Shown: one piece after another, positions 20,405 to 36,795 of the stretch | How positions within the stretch are numbered: position 1 is the first letter of the stretch | How the letters are laid out: the number at the start of each line of letters is the position of its first letter | NCBI RefSeq assembly: GCF_000299355.1 | Contig: NC_018664.1 | Span: forward strand, 1,844,380-1,908,379 | Direction: 5' to 3' | Length of the DNA stretch: 64,000 nt | From: Gottschalkia acidurici 9a | Lineage (GTDB): Bacteria; Bacillota; Clostridia; Tissierellales; Gottschalkiaceae | Notes under the pieces: generated by a model | The model's input: only the letters and a program-made list of their open reading frames with translations | What the model was told of the DNA's origin: nothing | The model's database searches: none | Program-made: the position numbers and the translations under genes

Positions 20405-20473
20405 AAATAGACTTATAAATATATTTAATTAAATGCATAACTAAAACATATGCAAATTTATATAAGCTATATC

Positions 20474-20549
20474 GCCACTTCCCTTCGCTAGTATTATCTA
20501 GATCAGGTTCTAAGAGTAAGTCTCAGCTTTTTTAAGCACCCCTAGTAGC
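20474..20549 (-). ncRNA. TPP riboswitch (THI element)
   Basis: The minus strand shows the conserved THI-box blocks in order: GGGGTGC, GCTGAGA, the ACCTGATCTAGATAATAC pyrimidine-sensing arm, and GCGAAGGGAAGTGG. The P1 helix closes as GCTACT (20544-20549) with AGTGGC (20474-20479). It is followed by an intrinsic terminator ahead of tenA. This gives thiamine-diphosphate repression of the tenA and transporter operon. Confidence 0.96.
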
Positions 20550-20585
20550 ATTTATTTGTTATTTAATTTTTTATATCTTGTATTC

Positions 20586-23374: not shown

Positions 23375-23911
23375 TTATTTATCTTTATCTATTCTTATCA
23401 TTCTATTATTTACGTATTCATTTAGTAATTTAAGAACTTCTTCTTTTTCTTCTGCTAGTTCCCTAATAGGAAGTATATATGCTGATACTGGTGAATTGTA
23501 TATAAGTATATAATTTTTATCAACCAGTACTTTTTCTATTCCATTCCACCTTGTTATACTCTCATCATTTGTATTTATTGTCTTTACTCCAGTTTCATCT
23601 ATGATAATTTTACGCTCTCCTAATATAGATCCTTTTTTGTCCTCTGAAATCATTTTTCTAGCTAATTTTCTTATAGATCTTTCTTCACTTTTAGGATAAT
23701 AGAATACATAAAATATAGATGCAATAATAAACCATATATAACGATACCAAAGAGGAATATGATTTGAAAGAAATAATGGCAATATCATAAAGAAAATTAT
23801 TGGAAGGAATCTCATTAATCTTGACCTTTTTATTAATTCTTTAGAGTTTCTATAGTTAATTATATTAAAGTTTACATAATCATCTTCAGTTATATTTATA
23901 TTTAACTCCAT
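23375..23911 (-). CDS. YcxB-like membrane protein
   Basis: A 178-residue protein. Two adjacent hydrophobic segments lie at residues about 34-70 (FLPIIFFMILPLFL, then YIWFIIASIFYVFYY). A cytoplasmic C-terminal domain has the YcxB-like pattern GERKIIIDETGVKTINTNDES, TRWNGIEKVLVDKNYILIY and AYILPIREL. The function of the family is not known. The start ATG at 23911 follows AAGGAGAAGATGA. It is the last chromosomal gene before the element-bearing region on its right. Confidence 0.8.
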   Translation of the reverse strand: MELNINITEDDYVNFNIINYRNSKELIKRSRLMRFLPIIFFMILPLFLSNHIPLWYRYIWFIIASIFYVFYYPKSEERSIRKLARKMISEDKKGSILGERKIIIDETGVKTINTNDESITRWNGIEKVLVDKNYILIYNSPVSAYILPIRELAEEKEEVLKLLNEYVNNRMIRIDKDK

Positions 23912-24103
23912 TCATCTTCTCCTTTCTACCATTTATTAAATTCATTATATATTTCCTATAGTTCGTAGTCAACACAGCCCAATATAAGATAACGCTAGCT
24001 TATACCTTAATTTCTATAGTAAACGAGTGGATGGTATAAATGCTTTTATTCAAAATGAAAAATTTAGACCTAAAAACCTAGAAGAATATTAAAGAAATAT
24101 AAA

Positions 24104-24128
24104 AAACATCACATTAATTGTGATGTTT
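24104..24128 (-). terminator. Stranded terminator, probably the original rnpB terminator
   Basis: A 10-bp stem AAACATCACA/TGTGATGTTT with a 5-base loop is followed on the minus strand by a T-run. It lies 8 bases beyond the distal copy of the rnpB 3' end (24136-24168). No complete minus-strand gene ends here. The functional rnpB copy at 26903 has no comparable hairpin behind it. The simplest reading is that this terminated rnpB before an element split the two. Confidence 0.7.
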
Positions 24129-24135
24129 GAAAATT

Positions 24136-24168
24136 TAAGTGAGCAAATCTATAAGCCGAGTTTTGTAT
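24136..24168. repeat. Distal att copy: duplicate of the rnpB 3' end
   Basis: A 33-base direct repeat matching 26903-26935 (the last bases of rnpB) at 31 of 33 positions; the differences are C/T at position 9 and A/G at position 23. It marks the far end of the integrated element. Confidence 0.85.
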
Positions 24169-24296
24169 TCCTATCAGATTGTTTTTAGGATTAAACATTT
24201 TATTTTAGAATAACATTTAATGTTGATACTCTAACGTTTGACGTATATATAGTTAAATATAGACTTTCTATAAATTTTATTATAAGTAGATCTATT

Positions 24297-24314
24297 GGTG
24301 GCAAAACGGTGACA
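24297..24314. repeat. GGTGGCA-type repeat, left end of the element
   Basis: GGTGGCAAAACGGTGACA, 16 of 18 identical to 26847-26864. Each copy holds a tandem GGTGRCA unit at 11-base spacing, about one helical turn, as in arm-type binding sites of tyrosine recombinases. The rest of 24169-24405 is A/T-rich with no frame I can support. Confidence 0.55.
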
Positions 24315-24405
24315 TATTTATTTCGCGACCATTTACTTAAAAATTATTAAATGTTTTCATTTCTTTATCTTCCACATACTATAATTTTTATATTAGATAA
24401 ATTAC

Positions 24406-24546
24406 TTATTTAATTATTCCTTTCTTCTTTATATCATTATAGAAGATTTCTACTAAAGGTTTATAATACTCCTCTTCACCTACTTCTTTACTTATTACTT
24501 CTCCTGTTTTTCTATCTATAGTAGTTTTTACTACTGCTACCTTTAT
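24406..24546 (-). CDS. Small 46-codon frame with ATA at the start position
   Basis: The minus strand encodes KVAVVKTTIDRKTGEVISK, then a glutamate-rich EEEYYKPL, then VEIFYNDIKKKGIIK. That is an ordinary coding composition with a plausible beta-then-helix layout, and it ends in TAA at 24406. A good AAGGAG ribosome-binding site is placed eight bases before an ATA codon (24544-24546). The in-frame stretch up to the preceding TAA has no ATG, GTG or TTG. Either ATA is used, or an ATG has mutated and the gene is dead. I recognise no family. It lies inside the decayed element. Confidence 0.4.
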   Translation of the reverse strand: MKVAVVKTTIDRKTGEVISKEVGEEEYYKPLVEIFYNDIKKKGIIK

Positions 24547-25039
24547 GTTTTCACTCCTTATTTCTGAATTTTATTACCTACATATCTATTTTACGTTTCT
24601 ATATAATCAATTAAACATACTAAGACAGGATATATTATAGAATTAATTATATTCTATCCTACTACATAAAAAATCTTATATAAAATGAAAACCCTAGAAG
24701 ATCATCTAGACTTATGTATCTAAAGTACTTGTATTTGATGACACAATAGATATATCGGATTATAGAAATGCTACATAGATGTACTTTCAATAGGGTATGA
24801 AAAAATCAGCAAACTTTTACTATTCTGCCGCCTTTCATTATTTGTATTATCTATATTTAATAGCATCTTTGTTTGCTAGTTTAATAGTCCAAAGATTAAA
24901 CTTAAAATCCAAATGACCTAACCTATAAGTGAGATATAGTAACTCATATTTTCATAACTTTGGGTGAATTTAATTCCTTTATTTTAAAAGATTATCGTGT
25001 AAGATTCCAAAGATACACATTCTTATAACTTTTTTAATT
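24547..25039. other. Gene-free stretch with a decayed coding fragment
   Basis: No intact gene. On the plus strand, 24685-24790 contains ATG-initiated MKTLEDHLDLCI, then in the next frame KVLVFDDTIDISDYRNAT followed by TAG and MYFQ. This reads like a gene with a frameshift and a nonsense change. The middle part faintly recalls the DxDIDxSD stretch of UbiD-type decarboxylases, but this is too short to assign. The remainder is A/T-rich sequence leading to the SDR gene. Confidence 0.3.
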
Positions 25040-25978
25040 TTAAGTAGACATTACTTGCCCACCATTTACGTGGAGTGTTTGCCCTGTTACAAATCGTGAA
25101 TCATTAGATGCAAGATAGACGTAGGTAGGGGCTAATTCAAATGGCTGACCTTGACGATTCATTGGGTTACCAGCCTGTGTAACTACATCGGCGGAGAAAC
25201 TTGACGGAATTAATGGGGTCCATATACGACCAGGTGCAACAGCATTTACCCTAATACCTTTGCTTACTAAATTTTTTGCTAATGCACGTGTAAAACCAAC
25301 TATGGCAGCTTTAGTAGCTGTATAATCTATTAGTTGTTCATTTCCATCATATGCTACCACAGAAGCTGTATTAATTATGGAGCTTCCTGCTTTTAAACAA
25401 GGTAATGCCGCCCTTGTTGTGTAAAAGTGAGAATAGATATTAACCTTAAAAGTATCATCAAACTGTTCATCTGTTATATCAAGTAAGCTTAATTGCTGAA
25501 ATTGTATGCCAACATTATTACAAAGAATATCCAACCGTCCAAATTCTTCTATAGTTTTCTCTACAATATATATACATTGTTGTTTGATTCTTAAATCACC
25601 AGGTAATAATAAACAACGTTGTCCTAGTTCTTCAATTCTTATCTTAGTACGATTAGCATCCTCATGCTCGTCTAAGTAAGAAATAGCTATATTTGCCCCT
25701 TCCTTGGCAAAGGCAATTGCTACTGCTGCACCTATTCCACTGTCTCCACCTGTAATTAGTGCAACTCTTCCCTCTAGTTTTCCACTTCCTATATAATTAG
25801 GATTTTCAATAATTGGTCTTGGAATCATCAATCTCTCTACTCCAGGTTGGCGATATTGACGTTGTTCTGGTACTGTAATAGGAACATCTTGGTATTGGGT
25901 TATCTTCCCGTAATTAGGATGAATCGGGTAATCTTGATTAATTAGTTTATTTTTATTGATTCGACTATACTTAGACAT
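25040..25978 (-). CDS. SDR family oxidoreductase (general-stress dehydrogenase type, YdaD/YhxC-like)
   Basis: A 312-residue short-chain dehydrogenase. An N-terminal extension of about 65 residues ([32 protein letters not shown]) is typical of the Bacillus general-stress group. The NAD(P)-binding motif is TGGDSGIG (about residue 77). The catalytic triad is Ser in [11 protein letters not shown] and Tyr/Lys in YTATK, followed by [13 protein letters not shown]. The natural substrate is unknown. The gene lies within the decayed element, with no partner on its strand. Its wording and codon choice look less A/T-biased than the neighbours, which suggests it was acquired. Confidence 0.92.
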
Positions 25979-26129
25979 AATTTCCCCTCCTATAATAATT
26001 ACTTCAAAGATACTTTATGTTATATAGACATATAAAGTGCACGTACAAAAGGAAGCTTTCTCTAGTACATGCACTTTATTTATAGAATCGAATAAAATAT
26101 TAACCAATAACTTAAAGGAGGGTATCATT

Positions 26130-26303
26130 ATGCAAAATCATGAATCTTATTATTGTGCAGAGTTACTACTAGTGAGCTTTTCTGATGAAAAAGTACCAGT
26201 ACTATATGACTCAAATCCTCAACCATTTTTACTACCGAAAATAGGACCAAGACCACCCTATTATTGCAATCCCCATTGTGAGCCATATTACCCTATTATC
26301 TAA
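26130..26303 (+). CDS. Small Tyr/Pro/Cys-rich protein, 57 aa
   Basis: The start is the ATG at 26130, seven bases after the strong ribosome-binding site AAAGGAGGG; an earlier in-frame ATG at 26037 lacks one. The protein begins MQNHESYYCAELLLVSFSD and ends GPRPPYYCNPHCEPYYPII. Such Tyr/Pro/Cys-rich tails are seen in small spore-coat and surface peptides, but no family can be named. It is divergent from the SDR gene (gap about 150 bases) and has its own terminator. Both may be cargo of the element. Confidence 0.65.
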   Translation: MQNHESYYCAELLLVSFSDEKVPVLYDSNPQPFLLPKIGPRPPYYCNPHCEPYYPII

Positions 26304-26366
26304 TTATATCTAATATATAAAGTGAATCTTATCTACACTATTTATGCTGATAGTACCAGTAGCTAG

Positions 26367-26394
26367 AAAATAGGACAATTAGTCCTATTTTTTT
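26367..26394 (+). terminator. Terminator of the 57-aa gene
   Basis: A 10-bp stem AAAATAGGAC/GTCCTATTTT with loop AATTA, followed by a T-run. Confidence 0.85.
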
Positions 26395-26397
26395 GCA

Positions 26398-26824
26398 TCA
26401 GATCTTACTACTTTACAGCACGTTTATGGGGTTTTAAATTCAGCCTTAAATAGAGCTATTAAGTTGTAGATATTAAAAGATAATCCTTGCAATTATGTAG
26501 ATCGACCTAAGCGTGTAAAGTTTAAAGGGAATGCTTTAGAGTTAGAAGTTATAAGTTCATTATTCAATTCATTAGATCTGAATAAGTATAATGACTATAT
26601 AATGTATTTAGCGTTAAAGTTAACACTTGAACTAGGTTTAAGACGTGGAGAACTTGCGGGAATTGAGTGGAATAACATAAACTATAATGAAAAAATTCTA
26701 AGTATAAAAAATAATCTAACATATACTAAATGATGTAAAATTAGATACACCAAAGACAGAAGAAAGTGAAAGAGATATTTATTTATCTGATGATTTAATT
26801 AATCTTTTTAAATCTATAAAATAA
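26398..26824 (+). pseudogene. Tyrosine recombinase (phage-type integrase) remnant
   Basis: In frame from 26398 the plus strand gives LQHVYGVLNSALNRAIKL, a TAG, then NPCNYVDRPKRVKFKG, YIMYLALKLTLELGLRRGE and LAGIEWNNINYNEKILSI, then a TGA. A frame change continues as VKLDTPKTEESERDIYLSDDLINLF and a stop at 26824. LGLRRGELAGIEW holds the first catalytic Arg of tyrosine recombinases. The N-terminal arm-binding domain and the C-terminal HxxR...Y half are missing. It lies 78 bases from the rnpB 3' end, the normal place for an integrase beside its att site. Confidence 0.85.
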
Positions 26825-26846
26825 ATTACCACCTAAATTTACCGTC

Positions 26847-26864
26847 GGTGGCAAAATGGTGGCA
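26847..26864. repeat. GGTGGCA-type repeat, right end of the element
   Basis: GGTGGCAAAATGGTGGCA contains two identical GGTGGCA units 11 bases apart and matches 24297-24314 at 16 of 18 positions. It lies 38 bases from the att copy at 26903. Probable arm-type integrase sites. Confidence 0.55.
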
Positions 26865-26902
26865 ATAATGAAATATGTATTATGTAAATATGCTGTTTTC
26901 AA

Positions 26903-26935
26903 TAAGTGAGTAAATCTATAAGCCGGGTTTTGTAT
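26903..26935. repeat. rnpB-proximal att copy
   Basis: The 33-base repeat unit that forms the 3' end of the functional rnpB, matching 24136-24168 at 31 of 33 positions. If integration copied the usual way, this end was supplied by the element and restores the RNA. Confidence 0.85.
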
Positions 26936-27251
26936 CTGACGATCATCTATCTAGACCCATTGTTGCCAATGGGTTCAAGCAACCTACCAATCGGGAAGGT
27001 GACGGGTAACCACCTCCAAACTCCCTAGCTTGGTCTTGCTCCGGATGGGGTTTACATAGCCAACTAGTCACCTAGTTGCTGGTGGGCTCTTACCCCACCT
27101 TTCCACCCTTACCTAAACTTAAAAGTTTAGGCGGTATATCTCTGTTGCACTAGCCTTGAGGTCACCCTCACTGGACGTTATCCAGCATCCTACCCTATGG
27201 AGCCCGGACTTTCCTCATGCCTAAGCATGCGATCATCTGACTTACTCACGT
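26905..27251 (-). ncRNA. rnpB: RNase P RNA, bacterial class A
   Basis: The catalytic RNA of RNase P, which matures tRNA 5' ends. On the minus strand the conserved blocks appear in order: GAGGAAAGTCCGGGCTCC (P4 5' side), GTGCAACAGAGATATACCG, GGTAAGGGTGGAAAGGTG, GTAAGAGCCCACC, GGAGCAAGACC and, near the 3' end, ACAAAACCCGGCTTATAG. The terminal helix P1 pairs GTGAGTAA with TTACTCAC. The length (about 345 bases) is normal. The ends are set by P1 and are good to a few bases. The 3' end carries the att site of the adjoining element. Confidence 0.97.
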
Positions 27252-27282
27252 TATTAACTTTTTAAATTTAATCACCTTTATT

Positions 27283-27312
27283 AATATAACATAGATAAAT
27301 AATCAATGTCAA
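27283..27312 (-). promoter_or_regulatory. rnpB promoter
   Basis: On the minus strand TTGACA (27307-27312) is followed after 17 bases by TTATAT (27284-27289), or after 18 by TATATT. It lies just beyond the end of the HD-domain gene and about 30 bases before the mature RNA 5' end. Confidence 0.7.
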
Positions 27313-27318
27313 TTGAAT

Positions 27319-27906
27319 TTATTGTAAAATTTCTATATCTTCAACTATGCTGGGAAGTATTTCATCTATAAAATATTTTACACTTATCAAGTTACTTTCC
27401 TTCAACTTATTTACTAGCATAGAGTACTTCTCATTAAAAGTTTGTGTATTTCCTAACTGAATTTCATATATACACTCTAGTAGAGCATCTATACTATCTG
27501 CATAACTTAATATTTGTCCTTCAATTGTATCATCTTTAAAGTTAGTTAAAATTTCTCTATATTTTTCTTTATAGGGATTTTCTAATTCTTCTATTAATAC
27601 TTCTTCTACTAGTTCATCTTCTATTTTATCTACTAGTGCCTTTAATTTAGAATCTCTATATTTCATAGTATTTATTATATCCCCTGTCATAGCTTCTGGA
27701 ACATCATGGTTTATGAGTTTAGTAAGTAATTTTTTCCAGTCTATGGTATTCCCGTTTTCTTCTTCTATTACAGCTAGCATCTGTCCTATTTGAGTTACAA
27801 AAAATAAGTGTTCGCTCACTGTAGCTCTCATATGCATATATTCATTAGACCATCTACCCATATTATTTAGTTTTCTTACTATCTTTAAATAGTTACCAAA
27901 TCCCAT
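27319..27906 (-). CDS. HD-domain phosphohydrolase, YfbR-like
   Basis: A 195-residue soluble HD protein. Metal ligands are visible in SEHLFF (His, about 32), INHDVPEAMTGDI (His-Asp, about 68) and YADSIDALLE (Asp, about 136). This order fits the YfbR-like 5'-deoxynucleotidase group, which removes phosphate from nucleoside monophosphates. The true substrate is not proven. It is the last gene after nif3 (29-base gap) in the trmK-nif3-HD run, directly before rnpB. Confidence 0.85.
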   Translation of the reverse strand: MGFGNYLKIVRKLNNMGRWSNEYMHMRATVSEHLFFVTQIGQMLAVIEEENGNTIDWKKLLTKLINHDVPEAMTGDIINTMKYRDSKLKALVDKIEDELVEEVLIEELENPYKEKYREILTNFKDDTIEGQILSYADSIDALLECIYEIQLGNTQTFNEKYSMLVNKLKESNLISVKYFIDEILPSIVEDIEILQ

Positions 27907-36582: not shown

Positions 36583-36640
36583 AAAAAAGCAACCTGATGT
36601 TCCTATGTAGTTATATGTACATAGGGACGAAAGGTTACTT
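36583..36640 (-). terminator. T-box terminator of the glyS leader
   Basis: The inner stem GTCCCTATGTA/TACATAGGAAC (36618-36628 with 36599-36609) is extended by AAGTAACCT/AGGTTGCTT with one mismatch. TTTTTT follows at 36583-36588 on the minus strand. The alternative antiterminator uses the adjoining T-box sequence. Confidence 0.85.
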
Positions 36641-36795
36641 CCGCGGTTCCACCCTACTTGATATCTATATGATACCCATCTTTATACTATACGCTCAGAA
36701 ATTCCGTTCACTAAAAGCTTATATTAGGCTTTCACTATCCCTAATTCGCTTTGATAGTTCTTTTAGTTACTCTTTTTCTTCATAGCAAATATTTT
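36583..36795 (-). ncRNA. Glycine T-box leader
   Basis: The minus strand holds the T-box consensus AGGGTGGAACCGCGG at 36641-36655, which pairs with the tRNA acceptor end. The stem I elements upstream include AGCGAATTAGGGATAGTG and the helix ACTAAAAG/CTTTTAGT. A GGA triplet at 36703-36705 is a possible glycine specifier codon in the loop after that helix. The terminator lies at the 3' end, before glyS. The 5' boundary is approximate. Confidence 0.9.

Follow-up and report, generated by a model that had tools for sequence, protein, structure and literature searches.

The rnpB locus of Gottschalkia acidurici

The stretch of DNA analyzed here, referred to as the window, comprises 64,000 nucleotides (nt) of Gottschalkia acidurici 9a (contig NC_018664.1, positions 1,844,380 to 1,908,379). 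It contains rnpB, the gene of a class A RNase P RNA, next to a 2.77-kb segment that ends in a second copy of the rnpB 3' end (Table 1). The gene is the single RF00010 match in the whole genome and is complete in sequence after the insertion discussed below. Its terminal 33 nt recur 2,767 nt away, start to start, as a direct repeat with 31 identical positions. This 33-mer, searched with up to three mismatches, is present at two places in the window, which are the two repeat copies, and at none in 100 dinucleotide shuffles. The repeated core corresponds to what we take to be the 3' strands of the RNase P RNA helices P4 and P1.

Between the copies lie the remains of a tyrosine integrase gene. Its pieces align to the 388-amino-acid (aa) integrase of an Anaerosalibacter bizertensis locus (L073), and the main piece shares 46-59% identity over 86-87 residues with six intact or nearly intact integrases. 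The reading frame is interrupted by a stop codon at 26467-26469 and shifts between about 26720 and 26735. Neither the first 125 integrase residues nor the C-terminal region, which includes the last catalytic residues, found a match in the window; only the middle of the protein remains, short of a complete tyrosine recombinase. Among three intact relatives whose integrases were scanned, all have PF00589 together with a SAM-like domain, and two of the three have an arm-binding domain. Because its integrase is broken, the element can no longer move itself, and the window's own element is dead. The initial annotation, made from the letters of the window, had proposed a decayed integrative element with the rnpB 3' end as its attachment site; the flanking repeat, the intact rnpB and the broken recombinase on which it relied are all real.

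Table 1. Features of the rnpB-flanking segment and its interior (window coordinates).
Feature	Position	Strand	Remarks
rnpB, RNase P RNA class A	26903..27248	-	RF00010 full length, 307.6 bits; intact
Attachment core, rnpB side (rnpB 3' end)	26903..26935	-	direct repeat; homologous cores at ten other loci
Displaced attachment core	24136..24168	-	direct repeat of rnpB end, 2 mismatches
Arm-type repeat pair, rnpB side	26847..26864	-	TGCCACC twice, 11-bp spacing; intact relatives have it at this place too
Arm-type repeat pair, far side	24297..24314	-	as far from the core as in G016 and G259, to within 1 nt
Probable original host rnpB terminator	24104..24128	-	hairpin with T tail, now 2.8 kb off
Terminator-like hairpin, probably element-supplied, holding arm repeats	26825..26866	-	-17.3 kcal/mol (lowest of 12 shuffles -7.6); T-rich tail 26818-26824
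Tyrosine integrase remnant	about 26407..26821	+	residues about 126-264 of 388; one stop, one frame change
Short-chain dehydrogenase, probable passenger	25040..25978	-	312 aa, intact; PF13561, E 9.8e-60
57-aa open frame	26130..26303	+	no Pfam family
39-residue open stretch, possible gene remnant	24430..24546	-	no PHROG

Homologous elements at rnpB in clostridial relatives

Related integrases occupy the same site in other genomes (G and L codes denote the genomes and loci of the analysis; G503 corresponds to L351, G032 to L072, G026 to L256/L257 and G233 to L258/L259). Among 100 relatives, in 94 of which the rnpB site was found, the three best non-self matches of the remnant all lie at rnpB: G002 (59% identity), G016 (A. 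bizertensis, 54%) and G032 (Clostridiaceae bacterium M8S5, CP118523.1, 52%). All three genomes contain the rnpB end twice, with the second copy of G016 on another contig. The full-length integrases that the initial annotation proposed to look for, ending in the same region next to rnpB, exist. In a scan of one genome per species, the four rnpB-sited integrases were the exact top four (at least 54% identity) among the best 80 of 330 matched relatives, and blastn with four rnpB queries found no rnpB in the other 76 of these 80, six of which extend less than 300 nt past the integrase and so say little on this point. The association also passed a prediction test. Searched against 391 genomes of the class at E <=1e-80, the G002 integrase gave two new matches, G503 (62%) and G586 (57%), and the prediction held for both: each has rnpB, and the rnpB-end motif lies 93-110 nt from the integrase match, with a second copy 79.2 and 38.1 kb away, respectively.

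Including these two, ten loci other than the window carry two rnpB-end copies. The copies are 29.2 kb apart in G002, 9.3 kb in G032, 20.5 kb in G026, 31.7 kb in G233 and 39.5 kb in G257, and are on separate contigs in G016, G259 and G260. Integrase frames of at least 366 aa are present in G002, G016, G032, G259, G257, G503 and G586. The element of G002 is a tailed prophage with terminase, portal, minor head and major head proteins, and that of G259 has terminases. The G032 element encodes a Zot-family protein (E 2.6e-9), read as a putative filamentous phage assembly protein, and its integrase is 2 kb from rnpB with two genes between. The G026 interval contains a complete-looking BREX set (BrxA, BrxB, BrxC, PglX, PglZ and BrxL) along with two genes that form a candidate defence pair (PDC-M62A/B); a search for an integrase within 4 kb of its rnpB found none. 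The G233 interval is rich in ordinary metabolic genes, beside a 100-aa integrase remnant; its copies are counted as an attachment (att) pair, yet the interval may not be one single element. The far copy of G503 is followed by the arm and terminator pattern of another element, which may make this locus a tandem pair, and that of G032 runs on through the terminator and one arm repeat, as in a tandem element or a scar.

A scan with a 21-base pattern returned at least two matches in 15 of 249 genomes. Five were looked at; G000, G032, G026 and G233 are real, and G188 was dropped as an att pair, its two matches being on opposite strands. This pattern missed G002 and G016, so the scan is not a census. 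One assembly, G004, has two different rnpB genes, on contigs 12 and 175 (L074, L075), possibly through contamination.

Shared architecture of the element ends

The ends of these elements share more than the core. Pairs of arm-type repeats with 11-bp spacing occur at two sites in the 64 kb, one inside each att copy, where 0.06 would be expected by chance. The GGTGGCA region that the initial annotation had noted beside rnpB is thus present at both segment ends. Nine-bp arm repeats with the same spacing are found at both ends of eight of nine loci (the window, G002, G016, G032, G233, G259, G260 and G257), and repeats of this type were not seen in the ninth, G026. The same layout was read by eye in G503 and G586, as was the second far repeat of G032. 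The sequence of the arm repeats varies among elements (TTTGCCACC, CTTCCGACAT, TTTGCCAAC and others); within one element, both ends agree with few mismatches.

On the rnpB side, the core is followed by a hairpin with a T-rich tail at all nine loci, at eight of which it falls below the lowest of 12 shuffles. A far-side hairpin is also present and falls below the lowest shuffle at eight of the nine, G233 being the exception; in G032 it is nearly identical to the rnpB-side hairpin. The arm repeats form part of the hairpin in G002, G259, G260 and the window. Past the displaced copies of the homologous elements stands a further terminator-like hairpin. Its counterpart in the window, already named in the initial annotation, is the sole terminator listed in a scan of 23900-27400, and it resembles both the terminator directly after rnpB in G001 and those past the displaced copies in G002 and G016.

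The cores themselves narrow the site of recombination. When the rnpB-side copy was compared with the far copy in 11 pairs, uninterrupted identity extended over 14-63 nt (14 in the window, within the 33-nt block, and 63 in G032). In all 11 pairs, the two copies agree fully over one 10-nt stretch, CGGCTTATAG or its counterpart, which bounds the likely place of strand exchange. The computed duplex between the rnpB 5' strand and 3' end is strong with either copy at eight loci. For the rnpB-side and far copies, it reaches -20.1 and -16.4 kcal/mol in the window, -14.1 and -17.2 in G259, and -11.7 and -15.0 in G260; at the others, the two values differ by at most 4.3 kcal/mol.

Interior and surroundings of the segment

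Apart from the integrase pieces, nothing in the interior matched the eight stretches of intact elements with which it was compared, and its left 0.9 kb resembles eroded DNA. The intact dehydrogenase has its best relative in G002 (63%), on a different contig from rnpB, and a 52% paralogue in its own genome; in each of 13 other genomes, the best match sits away from rnpB. These locations indicate that the gene is not a neighbour of rnpB by descent, and they argue against the segment being conserved ordinary chromosome, one of the outcomes that the initial annotation had named as fatal to its proposal. The identity of the YcxB-like gene that it placed beyond the terminator is confirmed (PF14317, E 3.7e-11). 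Elsewhere, the window has a T-box leader (36620-36792, minus strand) and a TPP riboswitch (20463-20553, minus strand).

Empty rnpB sites

The clearest empty site appears to be that of G001, a genome of the same family. It has one rnpB-end copy genome-wide at up to three mismatches, and its rnpB is directly followed by a terminator of the same GAAAACATCAC type as that beyond the displaced copy of the window. An empty site had been expected to read rnpB, terminator and YcxB-like gene. The first two are found in this order in G001, but tblastn gave no match to the YcxB-like gene after rnpB at two same-family sites, L349 and L077 (L077 extends only 43 nt past rnpB and so hardly bears on this). Since no YcxB-like gene was found after rnpB there, it is the terminator, and not gene order, that points to an empty site.

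In a broader sample of 30 rnpB loci, 28 gave the motif; without the window and four occupied loci, 23 remained. None of the 23 has a second rnpB-end copy in the 1.5-kb stretch covered at each (74 nt for L009), and 19 have a terminator-like hairpin within about 75 nt of rnpB. Since occupied loci also have hairpins, the hairpin count cannot separate empty from occupied sites. At L005 (G019, with the same genus code as G032), the opposite strand carries an integrase-like piece (E 8.7e-14) no more than 1.5 kb past rnpB, which may be another relic at this gene; no such piece was found at the other 22 loci.

Proposed history and alternative explanations

The segment from 24136 to 26935 is almost certainly the remnant of a prophage-like element whose own tyrosine integrase inserted it at the 3' end of rnpB. 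The proposal of the initial annotation is supported by the repeat, the arm sites at both ends, the integrase remnant, the terminator past the displaced copy and the homologues with intact integrases at the same site, all of them read directly from sequence. The attachment site of the element (attP) would have carried a copy of the rnpB 3' end, including the 3' strands of both helices (P4 and P1), and after it a terminator containing the integrase arm sites. Recombination would then have taken place inside the core, most likely in or beside the 10-nt identical stretch. By this exchange, rnpB would have gained an element-borne 3' end and terminator and presumably remained functional, and the host's own end and terminator would have been displaced to the far side. 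The ancestor may have been a tailed phage, and the dehydrogenase is best regarded as a putative passenger. Later, the interior would have shrunk to 2.7 kb and the integrase would have been broken, both ends surviving.

Several observations weigh against this account. The rnpB-side hairpin of the window has a weak tail (TTATTTT) and is absent from the list of a simple terminator scan, and the corresponding hairpin of G032 is no better than its shuffles (-8.6 versus a lowest value of -12.1 kcal/mol). The window holds no structural phage gene, and the kind of element is read from its relatives alone; having none of the head, packaging or tail genes, the window is not classed as a phage. The empty-site comparison is with G001, a genome of the same family rather than a strain of the same species, and the gene order downstream of rnpB differs there.

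Other origins of the two copies can be envisaged. A segmental duplication might have copied the rnpB 3' end with neighbouring DNA, leaving the integrase piece as a bystander. The ordinary dehydrogenase gene now in the interior would suit such an event, as would the tandemly repeated rnpB ends of Escherichia coli K-12 (113-bp period). Against it, the repeat does not extend past the 33-nt core, each end has arm repeats on its inner side, as far in as in intact elements, and ten other loci with different contents have the same layout, which together make a duplication extremely improbable. It is also unlikely that the 2.7 kb joins the products of two successive insertions, an old one that left the far core with its arm pair and a newer one that left the rnpB-side end: a host-type terminator stands immediately beyond the far copy of the window, and the two ends have matching arm motifs, even if the far copies of G503 and G032 show that tandem or scar cases exist.

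A further possibility concerns the kind of element rather than its insertion. The segment could descend from a small non-autonomous satellite or island that was never a full prophage, was moved by a helper integrase and carried the dehydrogenase as true cargo. The rnpB site does host cargo islands, such as the BREX and candidate defence genes of G026 with no integrase found within 4 kb of rnpB. The window, by contrast, has an integrase piece in the usual place, and its left 0.9 kb looks eroded, so that a non-autonomous origin can be considered but seems doubtful. The remnant of an integrase-bearing, prophage-like element remains the preferred reading. As such, the window copy is a fossil, ordinary in itself, and its interest lies in the class to which it belongs: a widespread and apparently undescribed class of integrative elements that target rnpB.

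Viral contigs and isolated phages

The rnpB end was also sought in 2.9 million viral contigs. Its GGCTTA form was examined in 80 of 86 matched stretches and its GGCGTA form in 46, which with the locus of phage Kukla makes 127 places. A convergent integrase frame lies within 400 nt at 30 loci (8 of 80 GGCTTA and 22 of 46 GGCGTA), among which L291 and L295 are one contig and some resemble repeat assemblies; no such frame was found at the other 96 viral places. L248 and L238, with an integrase in the direction of rnpB, were left out of this count. Likewise uncounted are L175, L177, L195, L196, L202, L211, L222 and L227, which have a full rnpB, a nearly identical rnpB end and an integrase about 1.4 kb away on the 5' side.

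With cmscan, a full rnpB was found beside the integrase in L179, L185, L187, L200, L299 and L300, and no rnpB in any of eight tested stretches with the block and a convergent integrase but without the 5' motif (L291, L292, L296, L298, L317, L322, L333 and L315), which fits the expectation for attP. Host contamination explains many of the viral blocks, which have a full rnpB upstream; as an explanation of them all it was rejected on these eight stretches.

The GGCGTA form is a true rnpB end, as seen in L290, L299, L300, L305 and L313; the records of L299 and L300 have one att copy each. At GGCGTA loci that carry an integrase, the G+C content is 66-70% (21 of the 22 computed), and among phage integrases those closest to the L212 one come from phages of Arthrobacter, Gordonia, Rhodococcus and similar hosts. 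On these two grounds, the GC-rich elements with an rnpB block are taken as probably actinobacterial. Two isolated Arthrobacter phages, TripleJ (NC_049470.1) and Kukla (PQ362669.1), have an rnpB-3'-like block, a candidate attP, 11-14 nt past the stop codon of the integrase gene. Three further contigs share 22 nt of this block, and cmscan found no rnpB in their stretches.

Searches with individual integrases added little. The L212 integrase found 13 loci in the viral contigs, with the block at the integrase end in L266 (itself), L269 (1 mismatch), L274 (the contig of L185) and, weakly, L273 (4 mismatches), and none in the other nine, of which L267 and L268 extend less than 10 nt past the integrase. 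The L179 integrase found only itself. A clostridial integrase searched against a phage collection matched 2,929 records, with at most 38.8% identity among the matches listed and two places of 60-80% outside the listed ones, and a plasmid search gave nothing close. Corynephage 304L has an annotated attP core but no exact rnpB motif and was grouped with the other sites.

Flagellin islands of Escherichia coli

An integrase related to that of EH10-18-47 is present in 19 of 5,426 E. coli genomes (3 at >=97.6% and 16 at about 75% identity), and the same 19 carry an rnpB-island junction. In four annotated genomes (NZ_CP063499.1, NZ_CP128963.1, NZ_CP010344.1 and NZ_LR536431.1), the order is rnpB, integrase, recombinase-family gene and flagellin. 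The phase-1 flagellin repressor is named in three of the four, ECC-1470 having there a gene of equal length labelled FliC, and TUM1887 was checked by Pfam. These are alternative-flagellin islands of the flk/fll type. The far junction of TUM1887 shares CTTATCGGTCAG with rnpB and then continues into K-12 sequence from downstream of rnpB (40 of 40 nt), as does that of VREC0864; the best match at the far junction of ECC-1470 is 30 of 40 nt, and no far copy was found in the stretch read for EH10-18-47. The island converts the rnpB end from GGTCAGTTTC to GGTCAGCTTC, which gives full pairing with the 5' GAAGCTGACC (-20.0 versus -17.6 kcal/mol). Its integrase has weak blastp matches to other rnpB integrases (E about 1e-4). 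Downstream of its rnpB, K-12 itself (NC_000913.3 3269500-3271500, L356) has a tandem repeat of 113 bp, which extends into the end of the gene.

Relationships among the integrases

A tree of 71 rows was built by quick search without bootstrap and included 34 of 70 loci with other sites and 17 of 22 GGCGTA-type loci. The nine clostridial rnpB integrases, including that of the window, form one group (SH-aLRT 94) apart from 35 other-site rows, and 16 GC-rich rnpB integrases group at 100. L185, L212/L315 and TripleJ/Kukla fall nearby, together with phage integrases of other sites; L187 and L197 are far off. The site label changes three times on the tree, against a mean of 23.2 after shuffling, a count that does not fix the number of origins because very few actinobacterial integrases with other sites were sampled and the branches of L187 and L197 are long. 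When the E. coli integrase is added, rnpB was likely adopted as a target several times, a number that the sampling does not fix.

Significance of rnpB as an attachment site

The familiar small-RNA-gene attachment sites are those of tRNA and tmRNA. The initial annotation had described RNase P RNA as a much less familiar target, which understated the matter, given that rnpB proves to be a recurrent one. No report of rnpB as an attachment site was found in open papers; the tables of TIGER/Islander (PMC12424338), which like subscription journals and other database tables lay outside that scope, may list it.

It is probable that rnpB constitutes, after tRNA and tmRNA, a third general class of attachment site among small RNAs. 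It would have been adopted several times by distant integrase lineages: the clostridial one, at least one GC-rich and probably actinobacterial phage lineage, that of E. coli and two very divergent metagenomic ones. Each integration would swap part of RNase P RNA for an element version with its own terminator, and the swapped end would be under selection to keep P1 paired, as in E. coli, where a G-U pair becomes G-C. Part of the essential ribozyme of such lysogens would thus be element-encoded. An essential catalytic RNA is a stricter test of harmless insertion, since a folded ribozyme has to be rebuilt with the inserted end.

This class has practical consequences. Tools that check tRNA and tmRNA ends alone would miss boundaries at rnpB. 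The alternative flagellin islands of E. coli gain a defined location, and a BREX defence island occupies the rnpB site in a relative of the window's genome. In addition, a conserved core combined with element-specific arm sites offers a natural set for studies of integrase specificity.

Comparison with known systems

Points of comparison among phages include the Clostridioides phages phiCD418 and phiC2, whose integrases belong to one alignable family with those at rnpB; phiCD418 has TTTGCCACC-type repeats after its integrase, read by eye. They differ in that their integrases are 38% identical and that the best match of phiCD418 to the rnpB pattern has 4 mismatches in the 4.2 kb around the integrase. 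TripleJ and Kukla resemble the rnpB loci in having the block beside the integrase, which is 41% identical to that of L212, but with int as the reference, their core points the opposite way from the core at the other loci. The E. coli islands are likewise joined to rnpB, with the 12-nt core CTTATCGGTCAG at both junctions in L358 and the native downstream sequence 8.5 kb away. In contrast to the other elements, their integrase, of 465-486 aa, is only distantly related and reads away from rnpB, in the same direction as the rnpB gene.

Chromosomal attachment sites (attB) are typically tRNA genes, tmRNA genes and intergenic sites, as given in a passage of PMC12884075. The rnpB elements share with the tyrosine-integrase elements at tRNA and tmRNA ends the use of the 3' end of a small stable RNA as attB, an identity block that restores the gene, an integrase beside the att site and arm-type sites. 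They differ from them in targeting the catalytic RNA of RNase P and in seeming to bring their own terminator.

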